A stretch of DNA of 31,714 bases, taken from positions 1-31,714 of IMG/VR virus record IMGVR_UViG_3300042914_005431, one strand, 5' to 3'. Below are positions 6,184-10,879 of the stretch, in pieces. Numbering within the stretch: the first letter of the stretch is position 1; each line of letters starts with the position of its first letter. The notes under the pieces are model-generated. The model worked only from the letters and a program-made list of their open reading frames with translations, had not been told where the DNA came from and ran no database searches. The position numbers were made by a program, and so were the translations under genes. The stretch is from a virus.

Positions 6184-6450
6184 ATGCAAACATCAACTGA
6201 AATCCCCACGCTTACAGAAGCAATTAAAAACGCAAACATGGCTCAGATCGATTGTCTTTGGGCCATTCTCAAGTACAAAGAAATTGGTATTCTGAGAAAA
6301 GTAAAGTGCATGGCCGAAGTTTTTGGTCCGCAATTTGATTTGGATCAAGCACTGCGCGAATGCCCCGTTGATGATAAGGGACGAATTGTAGATTACAAGA
6401 CTCGTCATCTTATTCACGACGTACTTTTGGAATGCTCTCGTAGAAAGTAA
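6184..6450 (+). CDS. Hypothetical protein, 88 aa
   Basis: Not recognised. Helical, soluble, mixed charge (TEAIKNANMAQIDCLWAILKYKEIGILRKVKCMAEVFG...). Start fixed by the leaderless promoter geometry at 6150-6177. Codon use looks less A/T-biased than the neighbours, consistent with a well expressed early gene. The mRNA has a nested pairing GGCCA (6261-6265)/TGGCC (6311-6315) around TTCTCA (6266-6271)/TGAGAA (6293-6298). Confidence 0.7.
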   Translation: MQTSTEIPTLTEAIKNANMAQIDCLWAILKYKEIGILRKVKCMAEVFGPQFDLDQALRECPVDDKGRIVDYKTRHLIHDVLLECSRRK

Positions 6451-6452
6451 AA

Positions 6453-6680
6453 ATGGAAAAAGAACAATTTGTCCAACCCTTACAACGAGAAGTTGTAAGT
6501 TACGAAATCATCGATTCAAAAGGAGAATACGTTACTGCATATAGTGCGCATCTCTTTAAGAATACGAATGGTAGACTTGATGGTCTTCAATTGGCTAAAG
6601 ACGCTATTCGTTGTAAGCCTGATTATAAGATCGTAGAAGTTTACGAAAACGGTCATAGACAAATTATTATGGATTTTTAA
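6453..6680 (+). CDS. Hypothetical protein, 75 aa
   Basis: Not recognised. Small soluble protein with an alternating beta pattern (REVVSYEIIDSKGEYVTAYSAHLF; YKIVEVYENGHRQIIMDF). Two bases after the previous stop, so same transcript. Ends 5 bases before the first tRNA, implying that the tRNAs are processed from the same RNA. Confidence 0.68.
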   Translation: MEKEQFVQPLQREVVSYEIIDSKGEYVTAYSAHLFKNTNGRLDGLQLAKDAIRCKPDYKIVEVYENGHRQIIMDF

Positions 6681-6685
6681 TTAAA

Positions 6686-6761
6686 CGCGGGGTCGTCAAG
6701 AGGTTAAGACATCAGTCTCATAAGCTGACACGCGCGGGTTCGAATCCCGCCCCTGCAACCA
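6686..6761 (+). tRNA. tRNA-Met(CAU), initiator-like acceptor stem
   Basis: 76 bases with encoded CCA. Acceptor CGCGGGG pairs with CCCTGCA except for position 1:72, which is C-A, the mismatch diagnostic of bacterial initiator tRNA. Anticodon stem TCAGT/GCTGA with loop CTCATAA gives CAU; T-arm GCGGG-TTCGAAT-CCCGC is canonical; D-stem G10-C25, U11-A24, C12-G23. It lacks the three G-C pairs (29-31/39-41) at the base of the initiator anticodon stem and the purine11-pyrimidine24 pair, so it mixes initiator and elongator traits. CAU could also be elongator Met or lysidine-modified Ile, but C1:A72 argues for initiation. Confidence 0.9.
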
Positions 6762-6764
6762 CTC

Positions 6765-7185
6765 ATATAGGCAATAATATGACGGGAAAGAACTGGAGCA
6801 AGCCGAGCTGATATATAGGTTGTGAGTATGACAACTTATATAGGTATTCTTTTCCGATAGAGTCGCGGGTAAACTCTATATGTTTTCTAGCAACCACAAA
6901 CCCACTGGTAATAGGCTTCGTTGTAATTGGAATGTAGCAACGAGTAAAACCCTGCTAGAAATACTTGAGTGTGGAGGTAGAGTACTGTAACCGAGATTCT
7001 TTAATCACTCTGACAAAAACCTTCAAATTCCTCTAATAAAGGAGCGACACATGCCTCTTCTGGGAGAACTCGGAGGAGTAAGGACTGGGAATTCTCAGTC
7101 GATATAAGTTGTGTGACAGATCGGAGAGACGAGTATCGAGGTGACACCTGCCAAAGTGGTGTGACACTGGGAGAGACTAGGAAAT
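6765..7185 (+). ncRNA. Candidate large structured non-coding RNA between tRNAs (ROOL/GOLLD-like position)
   Basis: About 420 bases between tRNA-Met and tRNA-Asn with no credible ORF and clearly higher G+C than the surrounding genes (28 of 60 bases in 7081-7140). It contains several strong helices: TATATAGGTTGT (6812-6823) with ACAACTTATATA (6831-6842); ATAGAGT (6857-6863) with ACTCTAT (6873-6879); a perfect 9-bp TTTCTAGCA (6884-6892) with TGCTAGAAA (6953-6961) enclosing TCGTTG/CAACGA (6918-6923/6938-6943); GAGTG/CACTC (6967-6971/7006-7010); CCTCTTCT/AGAA..GAGG (7054-7076); GACTG/CAGTC (7083-7087/7096-7100); ACACC/GGTGT (7144-7148/7158-7162). A GTGTGACA..GGAGAGAC module occurs twice (about 7111-7130 and 7159-7176). 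Large ornate phage RNAs such as ROOL and GOLLD are known to sit beside phage tRNAs; I cannot assign it to either by eye. Confidence 0.55.
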
Positions 7186-7214
7186 TTTATAGTTCTTTTT
7201 ATAATTTAAAAAAA

Positions 7215-7297
7215 TCCTTGGTAGGGGAATGGTAAACCCAGAAAGCTGTTAACTTTCCGCGAAAGCACTGTACGTTCAAGTCGTACCCAAGGAGCCA
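7215..7297 (+). tRNA. tRNA-Asn(GUU) with enlarged variable arm
   Basis: 83 bases, CCA encoded. Acceptor TCCTTGG/CCAAGGA with discriminator G, as in bacterial tRNA-Asn; D-stem GGG/CCC; anticodon stem GAAAG/CTTTC with loop CTGTTAA, anticodon GUU; T-arm GTACG-TTCAAGT-CGTAC. Between the anticodon and T stems lie 12 bases (CGCGAAAGCACT) able to form a GC-GAAA-GC mini-hairpin, instead of the normal 4-5 bases for an Asn tRNA. Confidence 0.88.
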
Positions 7298-7301
7298 CTT
7301 T

Positions 7302-7389
7302 GGGTAGTTATACTGCTAAGGACGCAGCTCTGACTGTAAATCAGATATCTTAAATGATTGGCTAGGATCGTTACCTAGACTACCCACCA
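7302..7389 (+). tRNA. tRNA-Tyr(GUA), class II, with unusual T-loop
   Basis: 88 bases, CCA encoded. Acceptor GGGTAGT/ACTACCC, discriminator A; anticodon stem TCTGA/TCAGA with loop CTGTAAA gives GUA; long variable arm (16 bases, ATC/GAT stem) as expected for bacterial Tyr. T-stem CTAGG/CCTAG closes ATCGTTA, so positions 54 and 58 are A and U rather than the near-universal U and A. The linker between acceptor and D-stem (CTGC/GCAG) has 4 bases rather than 2. Confidence 0.85.
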
Positions 7390-7409
7390 TTTGTGTAATA
7401 ACACATATT

Positions 7410-7481
7410 CCTCCGTTACCCAAATGGCCAAGGGAGCAGTCTGCAAAACTGCGAATGTTGGTTCGATTCCAACACGGAGGT
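7410..7481 (+). tRNA. tRNA-Cys(GCA)
   Basis: 72 bases, CCA not encoded. Acceptor CCTCCGT/ACGGAGG with discriminator U, the Cys identity base; anticodon stem GCAGT/ACTGC, loop CTGCAAA, anticodon GCA; T-arm GTTGG-TTCGATT-CCAAC canonical. Unlike the three preceding tRNAs it needs CCA addition by the host enzyme. A GTGTAATAACAC inverted repeat (7393-7404) separates it from tRNA-Tyr. Confidence 0.92.
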
Positions 7482-7504
7482 CTTTTTGTGTAAATATAAT
7501 TGTT

Positions 7505-7705
7505 ATGGGCCTCGAAAAAGCAATTCTTCACAACAAGGAACATAGAAAACCATACAAGGATTCAAGGAGATTTGATCACAGCTGCAGAAATCATGGAAGC
7601 TGCGATTATTGTTTTGATAATCGAACTTTCTTCCATAAGAAGCGGGAAGCCTTTTCAATACAAGATTTAAAAGAATACAAAAATGAACTGCGGCAAACAT
7701 CCTAA
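7505..7705 (+). CDS. Small Cys/His-rich protein (zinc-knuckle-like), 66 aa
   Basis: The sequence KEHRKPYKDSRRFDHSCRNH followed by GSCDYCFDNR resembles a small conserved protein found in many phage genomes; H25, C27, H30, C33 and C36 could bind one zinc. Function unknown. Start at 7505 is chosen because the frame upstream of it runs through the tRNA-Cys gene, and because TATAAT (7495-7500) lies five bases before the ATG. It overlaps the DUF1501 gene by 23 bases. Confidence 0.7.
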   Translation: MGLEKAILHNKEHRKPYKDSRRFDHSCRNHGSCDYCFDNRTFFHKKREAFSIQDLKEYKNELRQTS

Positions 7706-9035
7706 ATTTTCCAATAGAAGAGAGTTTTTAACTACATTTGGCAATGGGATCGGAGGGCTAGCTTTAGCTTCTTTGTATGGATTGAATCCATATACTGCAA
7801 AAGCAATTTCTCCAACTCTTCCCAAGGAGTCTCACTTTCCAACAAAAACAAAAGCAATTATTCATTTATTTGCTGGCGGCGCTCCATCGAGCGTCGATAC
7901 TTTTGATTATAAACCATTCCTTCAAAAAAATAATGGATTAAAAATGGGACATGGAGAACTTTTAGCTTCTCCTTTTGAATTTAAAAAAAGCGGCAAATCT
8001 GGTATAGAAATTTCAGAAGTGTGGTCAGAATTAAGTGCTCATGCGGATGATATAGCAATCATAAATTCTATGTTTGCAGAAATCCCCGATCACGGGATTG
8101 CTGCCAAAGTTATTCATACGGGCAGCGCTCAACTTCCAAAACCTTCATTAGGAAGTTGGGTAGTTTATGGATTGGGGACGGCAAATCAAAACATGCCAGG
8201 CTTTATAAGCTTGAACGGATCATCCGTTTCAAGACAGAGTGCTTTTTTGCCTGGCATGTATCAAGGAAGTAATATTGATTATAGAGCTGGAGCTACCGCA
8301 GAACAATTAATTAATAATATTAAAAGTCAATTTTCCTCCTTAGAGCGACAAAGGAGGCAGTTAGATTTTGCGAAATTTTTAAACTTAAACCATATGAGCA
8401 ATCAATATGATGCTCAATTCGAAGCTCGCATTGAAACATTTGAAACTGCATTCAAAATGCAGGCGGAGGCAACTGACGTTTTCGATATTAGTAAAGAGTC
8501 AGAAAATATTAAAGAAATGTATGGGGTAAATGCAAGCGGCTCCAAACTTTTAATTGCAAGAAGACTCGTGGAACGCGGAGTACGTTTTGTACAAGTGAAC
8601 ATTGGGGGCTATGATCATCACGAAAACATTAAAGAAGCAATGCCTCGCACAACCAAGACGCACGATCAAGCCATTGCTGCTTTGATTAAAGATCTTAAAC
8701 AAAGAGGTCTTTTTGATTCAACATTAATTATTTGGGGAGGTGAATTTGGTCGCACCGTAACTGCTGGTGGAGCTGCAGGGGCTCCAGGTAGGGATCACAA
8801 CGGTAGAGCTTTTTCCACTTGGTTGGCTGGAGGCGGAATTAAAGGTGGACAACGCTATGGTGAAACAGATGAAACTGGAGGAAGTGCAGAAAAAGACAAG
8901 GTTCACGTTCACGATTTGCATGCAACTATTCTGCATGCAATGGGTTTAGATCATACAAAATTAACTTATACATATAATGGAAGACCATTTCGTTTGACAG
9001 ATGTCTACGGAAATGTAATTAAAGAGTTGTTTTAA
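7683..9035 (+). CDS. DUF1501 protein 1 with Tat signal (sulfatase/alkaline-phosphatase-like)
   Basis: 450 aa. Twin-arginine signal near the start (N11-R-R-E-F-L, then hydrophobic GNGIGGLALASLYGL). Mature part opens with KAIIHLFAGGAPSSVDTFDYKP, and later shows GGYDHH, WGGEFGRT, PGRDHN and FSTWLAGGGIKGGQRYG, the hallmark segments of DUF1501 (PF07394), a branch of the alkaline phosphatase/sulfatase superfamily whose Asp and His residues should bind two metals. The family is abundant in Planctomycetota and Verrucomicrobiota and rare in phages. Expected to be folded in the cytoplasm and exported by Tat. Substrate unknown; hydrolysis of sulfate or phosphate esters is only inferred from the fold. 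Followed by dCMP deaminase with a TAATG overlap. Confidence 0.85.
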   Translation: MNCGKHPKFSNRREFLTTFGNGIGGLALASLYGLNPYTAKAISPTLPKESHFPTKTKAIIHLFAGGAPSSVDTFDYKPFLQKNNGLKMGHGELLASPFEFKKSGKSGIEISEVWSELSAHADDIAIINSMFAEIPDHGIAAKVIHTGSAQLPKPSLGSWVVYGLGTANQNMPGFISLNGSSVSRQSAFLPGMYQGSNIDYRAGATAEQLINNIKSQFSSLERQRRQLDFAKFLNLNHMSNQYDAQFEARIETFETAFKMQAEATDVFDISKESENIKEMYGVNASGSKLLIARRLVERGVRFVQVNIGGYDHHENIKEAMPRTTKTHDQAIAALIKDLKQRGLFDSTLIIWGGEFGRTVTAGGAAGAPGRDHNGRAFSTWLAGGGIKGGQRYGETDETGGSAEKDKVHVHDLHATILHAMGLDHTKLTYTYNGRPFRLTDVYGNVIKELF

Positions 9036-9601: not shown

Positions 9602-10879
9602 TTAAGATAAAATTTCTTTTACTATTTTTCCATTATAAACAATAGAAGCTGGACGACCTCCAGGTGCAATTAAATGTTTTTCTGGATCTATTCCAACTTG
9701 ACTCAGCATGGTCGCCGCCATATTTTCAACAGTAAATGGATTGTCTTCTACGTCGCTACCAGTTGCATCTGAAGATCCATACACCATTCCTTGCTTAAAG
9801 CCTCCTCCAGCAAATACAATAGAAAATACTCTTGGCCAGTGATCGCGCCCCGCATCTTTATTAATTTTTGGAGTACGACCAAATTCAGAACTAACTAAAA
9901 CTATTGTGGAATCCAACAAGCCTCTTTGTTCCAAATCTTGAATAAGTGCTGCATAAGCTTGATCGAAAGAAGGAAGTTGCTTTGCGATTCCGCCACCAAT
10001 ATTAGTGTGCATGTCCCATCCTCCGTAAGTTACAGACACAAAGCGGACGCCAGCTTCAACTAAACGACGAGCCATCAGCAATCTTTGTCCCGCTTGACCC
10101 ATTCCATAAAAGTCTTTTATTTTTTCAGTTTCTTTTTGTAAATTAAAGGCTTCCCTCGCTTCTTGAGACGATATCATTGCATAAGCTTTTTGATAAAATT
10201 CATCCATTGCTGCAACAGAATCTGAAGTTTCCAAATATTTAAAATGACTATCGACAGTTTCTAAAATTGACCTTCTTCTTTCAAATCTTTCCGCAGAAAC
10301 ATTTTCGGGCAAAGCCAAATCACGAACTTTAAAATTTTCTTGTGCTGGATCGGAGCCCAAGCTAAAAGGTCCAAAAGCTTGAGACAAATAGCCAGTTCCA
10401 GCAGGATCGTTTCCATTATTCGCTATTTTTGTTGGAATAAAAACATAAGCTGGTAAATTGTTTCTGTCCTTCAATTCGTGAGAAACAATAGAGCCAAAAG
10501 ACGGGTATTGTAAAGCTGGAGATGGACGGTAGCCAGTAAACATGCTAGTTGTGCCCCTCTCATGTGCAGCTTCACCATGAGTCATTGAGCGAACGACAGT
10601 TAATTTATTTGCAATTTTTGCCGTTTTAGAAAGGTGTTCTGAAAAATGAACTCCAGGTATAGAAGTTTTAATTGATTTTAATGGCCCTCTATATTCTGTT
10701 GGAGCGTTGGGATGAGGGTCAAAAGTTTCTTGGGCCGCAAAACCACCTGGTAGATAAATATGAATAATGGATCGAGCTTTAGGAGAAATAGAAGATTGAG
10801 CTTGCAGTCTCAAAATATCCCCCATTGATAATCCTAAACCGCCGATAAATCCAGTGTATAAAAAATCTCTCCTATTCAT
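9602..10879 (-). CDS. DUF1501 protein 2 with Tat signal (sulfatase/alkaline-phosphatase-like)
   Basis: 425 aa. Tat signal right at the N-terminus (MNRRDFLYTGFIGGLGLSMG). Family segments: RSIIHIYLPGGFAAQETFDPHP, HGEAAHERGTTSMFTGYRPSP, VTYGGWDMH, SSEFGRTP, AGRDHWPRVFSIVFAGGGFKQGMVYG. Same family as 7683-9035 but clearly diverged: the two share the motif skeleton (RLVE.GVRFV.V, EFGRT, GRDH, AGGG.K.G..YG) with different inserts, so they are ancient paralogues or separate acquisitions rather than a recent duplication. This one is closer to typical planctomycete DUF1501 proteins (GGWDMH, GRDHWP). Convergent with the upstream plus-strand operon, divergent from the 11151 operon. Confidence 0.85.
   Translation of the reverse strand: MNRRDFLYTGFIGGLGLSMGDILRLQAQSSISPKARSIIHIYLPGGFAAQETFDPHPNAPTEYRGPLKSIKTSIPGVHFSEHLSKTAKIANKLTVVRSMTHGEAAHERGTTSMFTGYRPSPALQYPSFGSIVSHELKDRNNLPAYVFIPTKIANNGNDPAGTGYLSQAFGPFSLGSDPAQENFKVRDLALPENVSAERFERRRSILETVDSHFKYLETSDSVAAMDEFYQKAYAMISSQEAREAFNLQKETEKIKDFYGMGQAGQRLLMARRLVEAGVRFVSVTYGGWDMHTNIGGGIAKQLPSFDQAYAALIQDLEQRGLLDSTIVLVSSEFGRTPKINKDAGRDHWPRVFSIVFAGGGFKQGMVYGSSDATGSDVEDNPFTVENMAATMLSQVGIDPEKHLIAPGGRPASIVYNGKIVKEILS

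Follow-up and report, generated by a model that had tools for sequence, protein, structure and literature searches.

The stretch of DNA analysed here, called the window throughout, is a fragment from an uncultured phage (an IMG/VR record of 31,714 bases) that carries a tail gene of the minor tail protein L family. ARAGORN places a tRNA-Met (CAT) at 6686-6761 and a tRNA-Asn (GTT) at 7215-7297, both on the + strand (Rfam tRNA scores of 56.1 and 52.0 bits, respectively), and a tRNA-Cys at 7410-7482. Inspection by eye points to a tRNA-Tyr (GTA) with a long variable arm at about 7301-7389, which is reported by neither ARAGORN nor Rfam. Two full-length DUF1501 genes lie on opposite strands at 7683-9035 (+) and 9602-10879 (-), in a phage with lambda-like tail genes. 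A preliminary description made from the letters of the DNA had placed a structured noncoding RNA, possibly of a new class, at 6765-7185 inside a tRNA cluster. The setting is borne out by tRNA-Met as the immediate 5' neighbor and tRNA-Asn as the immediate 3' neighbor, and a structured RNA does lie at these coordinates, but its natural span is larger and takes up the whole gap between the two tRNAs (6762-7214). The lack of coding capacity and the locally raised G+C that had been pointed out likewise hold, as there is no ORF of at least 50 amino acids on either strand of 6681-7315, and the G+C content is 0.41-0.45 at the RNA locus versus 0.33 for the window. The + strand of 6762-7200 is predicted to fold with -126.6 kcal/mol (z = -2.73 relative to dinucleotide shuffles). 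The corresponding z for the - strand is -0.84, and better-than-shuffled folding is thus confined to the + strand. No promoter- or terminator-like sites were found in 6400-7700.

The RNA is assembled from several modules, all read from the + strand. Module D forms the 5' part (6762-6882); it is about 120 nt long, has a fold of its own (z = -3.05), and is present only in this phage and in an identical fragment (L012), whereas in other relatives domain A directly follows the tRNA. Domain A (6883-6963) comprises an outer helix (6884-6892 with 6953-6961), a small ACCA/TGGT hairpin and an inner stem-loop with the invariant sequence ATTGGAANGTAG. The outer helix is the perfect 9-bp helix of the preliminary description, and its pairs covary in 23 homologues. 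An insert of about 80 nt, module C (6962-7043), precedes two copies of a two-hairpin unit. Unit 1 (7044-7138), which is backed by covariation in alignment A5, has a closing helix ACACA/TGTGT, two inserted hairpins (about 7055-7078 and 7083-7100) and a GAGAGA-loop hairpin (about 7119-7135). Unit 2 (7141-7185) is a minimal form, GTGACACCTGCCAAAGTGGTGTGAC then CTG-GGAGAGAC-TAG, that folds as two hairpins. The units score 43.7 and 48.5 bits, respectively, with model R1, whose training set included the window's own units. An A/T-rich 3' tail (7186-7214) reaches tRNA-Asn, and positions 7191-7198 can pair with 6787-6794 over 8 bp (inverted repeat I3). Positions 6831-6841 and 7102-7112 form a perfect 11-nt complement, 260 nt apart. 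The second of these arms shares positions with the 3' strand of unit 1's closing helix, so the RNA might also fold in another way.

The internal repeat that had been noticed, GTGTGACA followed by GGAGAGAC, is present in two copies (GTGTGACA at 7111 and 7159, GGAGAGAC at 7123 and 7170, with spacings of 48 and 47 nt). Since syntenic relatives keep the repeat and its helices covary, it is more than a chance resemblance. What the preliminary description overlooked is that the repeat is an autonomous unit whose spread is far wider than that of tRNA clusters.

Syntenic phages were reached via the neighboring proteins. In three of them (L002, L004 and L017), the RNA is likewise located between tRNA-Met and the tRNA that follows, but it is shorter (319 nt in full in L004). 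Relatives lack the counterpart of window positions 6762-6882 and mostly also that of 6962-7043, in which case unit 1 directly follows domain A. Thus, domain A and the units constitute the core of the RNA, and the remainder is optional. In an alignment of 23 distinct domain A sequences (A4), double-sided changes are seen at 8 pairs of the predicted consensus, and none of the sequences breaks the outer-helix pairs (5-10 with 77-82). Covariation reaches 0.333, versus 0.120 for shuffled and at most 0.092 for slid versions. The corresponding model (R2) scores 94.8 bits on the window, which was part of its training set. In two cases (L011:21128-21208 and L025:599-679), a lone domain A tips a long perfect hairpin in intergenic DNA, with T-rich sequence after it and no unit nearby. 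In L002 (6830-7105), a tRNA-Asn is split in its anticodon loop (CTGT^TAAC) by an insert of about 240 nt containing the group-I-intron-like words GTAGAGACT and AAGACAAAGTCC, which went unreported by ARAGORN and by Rfam at the gathering threshold.

The unit consists of a closing helix, GACACM/KGTGTGAC, around an insert of about 4 to 65 nt, followed by a GAGAGA-loop hairpin with a stem of 3-5 bp. A scan with the pattern GTGTGACN{3,6}GGAGAGACKA recovered it from at least 119 viral stretches. The gap, for which the pattern allows 3 to 6, is 4 or 5 in 145 of the 146 matches listed, which is not expected by chance. The stem of the GAGAGA hairpin was left free by the search pattern, and among 67 distinct hairpins its covariation is 0.666, versus 0.198 for shuffled and at most 0.133 for slid versions; 83.6% of cells are paired versus 57.0% after shuffling, and double-sided changes number 102 versus 41. 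Within the closing helix, the sole pair not fixed by the pattern switches from C-G to A-U in concert. In the second inserted hairpin of the large form of the unit, every cell (100%) is paired and double-sided changes occur. A GC 5' of the closing helix and an AGT 3' of the insert, neither fixed by the pattern, are conserved in at least 90% of units. Part of the invariance of GACAC, TGTGAC and GGAGAGAC stems from the search patterns themselves, and the window's units were among the sequences used to train the models. Covariation among collected homologues, which the preliminary description had proposed as a check, is therefore found in domain A and in the units alike, and the folds of both are established. 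With covariation, many homologues and no Rfam match (see below), the feature in the window is almost certainly a structured RNA, as had been proposed.

The unit is the only part common to the whole class. Counted with the strict pattern, an array has between one and five units (L060 has four, and L032 packs five into about 480 nt), and a phage usually carries one array. Modules that lie between units recur among phages. Module C is shared with L024 (local alignment score of 69 versus a shuffled maximum of 31), where it lies between units 1 and 2 rather than between domain A and unit 1 as in the window, and two further modules recur between other phages (scores of 62 versus 31 and 47 versus 28 for shuffled sequences). 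The different placement of the same module in two RNAs is direct evidence of shuffling. Tandem multiplication of units has been accompanied by shuffling of modules between phages. Six MAGs assigned to Gammaproteobacteria (L137, L140, L141, L144, L153 and L155) have a conserved, structured-looking sequence of about 120 nt (CGGCCCGGCACCGGGCC...) ahead of the unit, which is perhaps another module.

In addition to more than 100 viral contigs, which is a lower bound, the unit is present in isolate phages of Gordonia (phage Sour), Marinobacter (PS3), Sinorhizobium (phiM9) and Microcystis, in plasmids of Microbulbifer, Sedimenticola, Agarilytica, Marinobacter and Vibrio alginolyticus, and in bacterial genomes. 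Single 45-nt units occur in plasmids and phages. A stricter two-part pattern yielded 31 loci in 84,980 bacterial and archaeal species genomes, mostly from Gammaproteobacteria but also from Alphaproteobacteria, Cyanobacteria, a Chloroflexota isolate (Bellilinea) and a Bacilli MAG; many of the 31 are MAGs, whose taxonomy can mislead for mobile DNA. One further genome among 273 sampled Gammaproteobacteria carries the unit, as expected for a mobile element and not for a core gene. No consistent gene type was found downstream of the unit, and three of ten downstream genes tested have mobile functions (primase, phage Mu Gp36 and the conjugal transfer protein CagX). In L038, L047 and L060, units follow a phage gene that we take, on reading the sequence by eye, to encode a capsid protein. 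When the window was compared by blast with named phages, the matches listed were tRNAs only, and a short-query blast was needed for the unit. A weak unit-like hairpin at L170:2993-3027, which is also hit in about 60 related Vibrio phage records, was not counted as a unit, as it scores 17 bits, has a GGAAAGAC loop and is antisense to the neighboring genes and to a tRNA-Gly.

The preliminary description had allowed for membership in an ordinary family such as group I introns. Among 4,227 Rfam families, the window matches none but tRNAs, even at E≤10, and no family matches in the loci of the phage relatives or in the bacterial and isolate loci. Group I intron models were among those without a match at E≤10, and neither flanking tRNA is interrupted. 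OLE, HEARO and the other Rfam families are also without a match, and there is no tmRNA in the window, although relatives do carry tmRNAs. A likeness to 5S rRNA, suggested by words in common (CACCTG, CCATGCCG and GAGAG), was dropped when cmscan of the array loci gave no 5S match. A literature search for the motif or for a matching class found none described; an earlier description outside Rfam is possible. The RNA very probably represents a new family with respect to Rfam 15.

Two large phage RNAs invite comparison. The ROOL model (RF03087) gives no match at E≤1 in the window or in ten related phages, and the same model recovers the ROOL RNA of L. salivarius pMP118 with 130.4 bits as a positive control; the unit model finds no unit in pMP118. 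The GOLLD model (RF02032), which covers the conserved 3' part, also gives no match at E≤1 in these 11 phages, the positive control having been for ROOL only. The new RNA resembles GOLLD in being a large structured phage RNA near tRNAs, with a conserved 3' and a variable 5' part (PMC12286853), and GOLLD env-38 was discovered downstream of a Met-tRNA (PMC12286853). In contrast to GOLLD, with which it has no sequence or structure match, the new RNA is shorter and is built of a repeated 45-100-nt unit that also stands alone in plasmids and mRNA gaps. With ROOL it shares an ornate fold and an occurrence in phages and mobile elements, often near tRNA islands, the window RNA lying between tRNA-Met and tRNA-Asn. 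However, the ROOL model spans 574 positions and contains no chain of units. The two abundant tRNA-adjacent lncRNAs of phage K (PMC9241854) are likewise long RNAs beside phage tRNAs, but the unit model finds nothing in phage K.

The arrays are oriented with their surroundings. Of 97 arrays with two called neighbors, 61 run in the sense direction relative to both neighbors, 26 relative to the downstream one alone and 9 relative to the upstream one alone, and a single array is antisense to both, whereas background gaps in bacterial loci are spread over the same four classes as 97, 84, 72 and 97 (28% antisense to both). Each of the 169 tRNAs located up to 2 kb from an array shares its strand. A tRNA or tmRNA begins no more than 100 nt downstream of 32 of 88 arrays, and in 29 of these 32 its mature 5' end is 8-14 nt past GGAGAGAC; in the window this distance is 37 nt. 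The short spacing, together with the lack of a promoter- or terminator-like site, fits an RNA cut from a tRNA precursor. Compact phage spacing alone would also yield short gaps, but we consider excision by tRNA processing within tRNA clusters to be probable. The window RNA would then be cotranscribed with the tRNA cluster and released by tRNA maturation, with 3' processing of tRNA-Met presumably generating its 5' end and RNase P cleavage at tRNA-Asn its 3' end. Phage tmRNAs adjoin arrays in L020, L023, L105, L129 and L135, and in the last four the unit ends 13-22 nt upstream of the tmRNA 5' end. Arrays may open a tRNA cluster, close it or lie within it, and they are not regularly located behind promoters. 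The units of Marinobacter PS3, a Sedimenticola plasmid and a Marinobacter salarius plasmid are the last element before a convergent gene.

We favor, with a probability of roughly 0.4, the interpretation that these RNAs form a modular class of phages and mobile elements in which the unit is a putative cis docking element. The unit is autonomous, indifferent to gene type, limited to mobile DNA as far as seen, in sense orientation and present in phages whose hosts belong to multiple phyla, and these properties favor either a cis element read by a universal machine or an RNA-only activity. The conserved unpaired nucleotides of each unit (the TGC/AGT internal loop, the GAC linker and the GAGAGA hexaloop) might form a binding surface. 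Its partner would be a part of the host gene-expression machinery that is shared by all bacteria in much the same form; RNA polymerase is the likeliest candidate, followed by the ribosome. The unit could act in cis on its own transcript, for example by keeping the polymerase going through untranslated tRNA stretches, and might do the same for long mobile-element operons, as does put RNA in phage HK022. Tandem copies would add avidity.

The put RNA of HK022 is an element of about 70 nt with two hairpins that acts in cis and needs no protein partner to bind RNA polymerase (PMC9378689), and it serves as the model for the proposed mode of action. The new units share with it the two hairpins, the phage context and the sense orientation, but put RNA occurs once per early operon, whereas the units are repeated and inflated by inserts. 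Although put RNA lies ahead of the genes that it serves, some units end an operon, and those before a convergent gene would give antitermination little to act on. In addition, arrays have no regular place behind promoters, and the unit model finds nothing in HK022 (NC_002166), such that put was not retained as a homologue. A put-like action in cis is an analogy that we hold to be possible but doubtful. We are equally tentative about the fuller proposal, that this is a widespread class with hosts of several phyla whose 45-nt unit is a protein-independent docking or antitermination element, and that tRNA-rich phages multiplied the units and added swappable domains.

Large multi-module arrays look more like a trans-acting RNA than like a cis element. 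The main rival for these arrays is accordingly a trans-acting scaffold, an analogue and not a homologue of ROOL and GOLLD, that would be excised, would be abundant late in infection and might oligomerize or bind ribosomes or tRNAs; the units would be its building blocks. The tandem arrangement of units and the shuffling of modules would suit such a role, the location near phage tRNAs is the same as that of GOLLD and ROOL (in 18 of 29 arrays, the first tRNA upstream is tRNA-Met), and the tRNA-adjacent lncRNAs of phage K are abundant (PMC9241854). Nonetheless, there is no sequence relation to ROOL or GOLLD, and solitary 45-nt units in plasmids and in phage gaps away from tRNAs cannot be cages. 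We regard a scaffold as somewhat unlikely.

Other functions fare less well. An element that shields neighboring RNA from exonucleases, or that marks a cleavage site between cotranscribed genes, would agree with the occurrence of units between co-oriented genes, directly 5' of tRNAs, tmRNAs and start codons, and also at operon ends. However, protection needs no conserved loops, yet the pattern-free GC and AGT are highly conserved, which makes this role unlikely. Less likely still is a small self-cleaving ribozyme, even though the compact two-helix core, the conserved unpaired nucleotides, the tolerance of large inserts in one loop, the proximity to gene starts and the occurrence in phages and mobile elements would all be appropriate for one. 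The unit resembles no Rfam ribozyme family, and tandem arrays with shared folding would fall apart if each unit cleaved. DNA hairpins can covary too, and a recombination, packaging or replication element would be at home in mobile elements, but the sense orientation to genes and tRNAs and the many G-U pairs in the covarying GAGAGA hairpin stem make a DNA-level function very improbable. Finally, a divergent ROOL or GOLLD RNA, as the preliminary description had suggested, is favored by position beside tRNAs only and is scarcely tenable given that neither model matches the 11 phages, the idea being refuted for ROOL at the sensitivity used.

The structured RNA class described here is absent from the libraries and the literature searched, and in this sense is undescribed. 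To our knowledge, few large structured phage RNAs are known, and most of them have no assigned function. The exchange of whole RNA modules between phages is unusual in itself. Moreover, the conserved core is small and autonomous and stands alone in culturable phages and plasmids, which makes functional tests feasible on 45 nt instead of 400. Its presence across unrelated mobile elements in hosts of several phyla points to an activity of the RNA alone or to a partner that is conserved in all bacteria.
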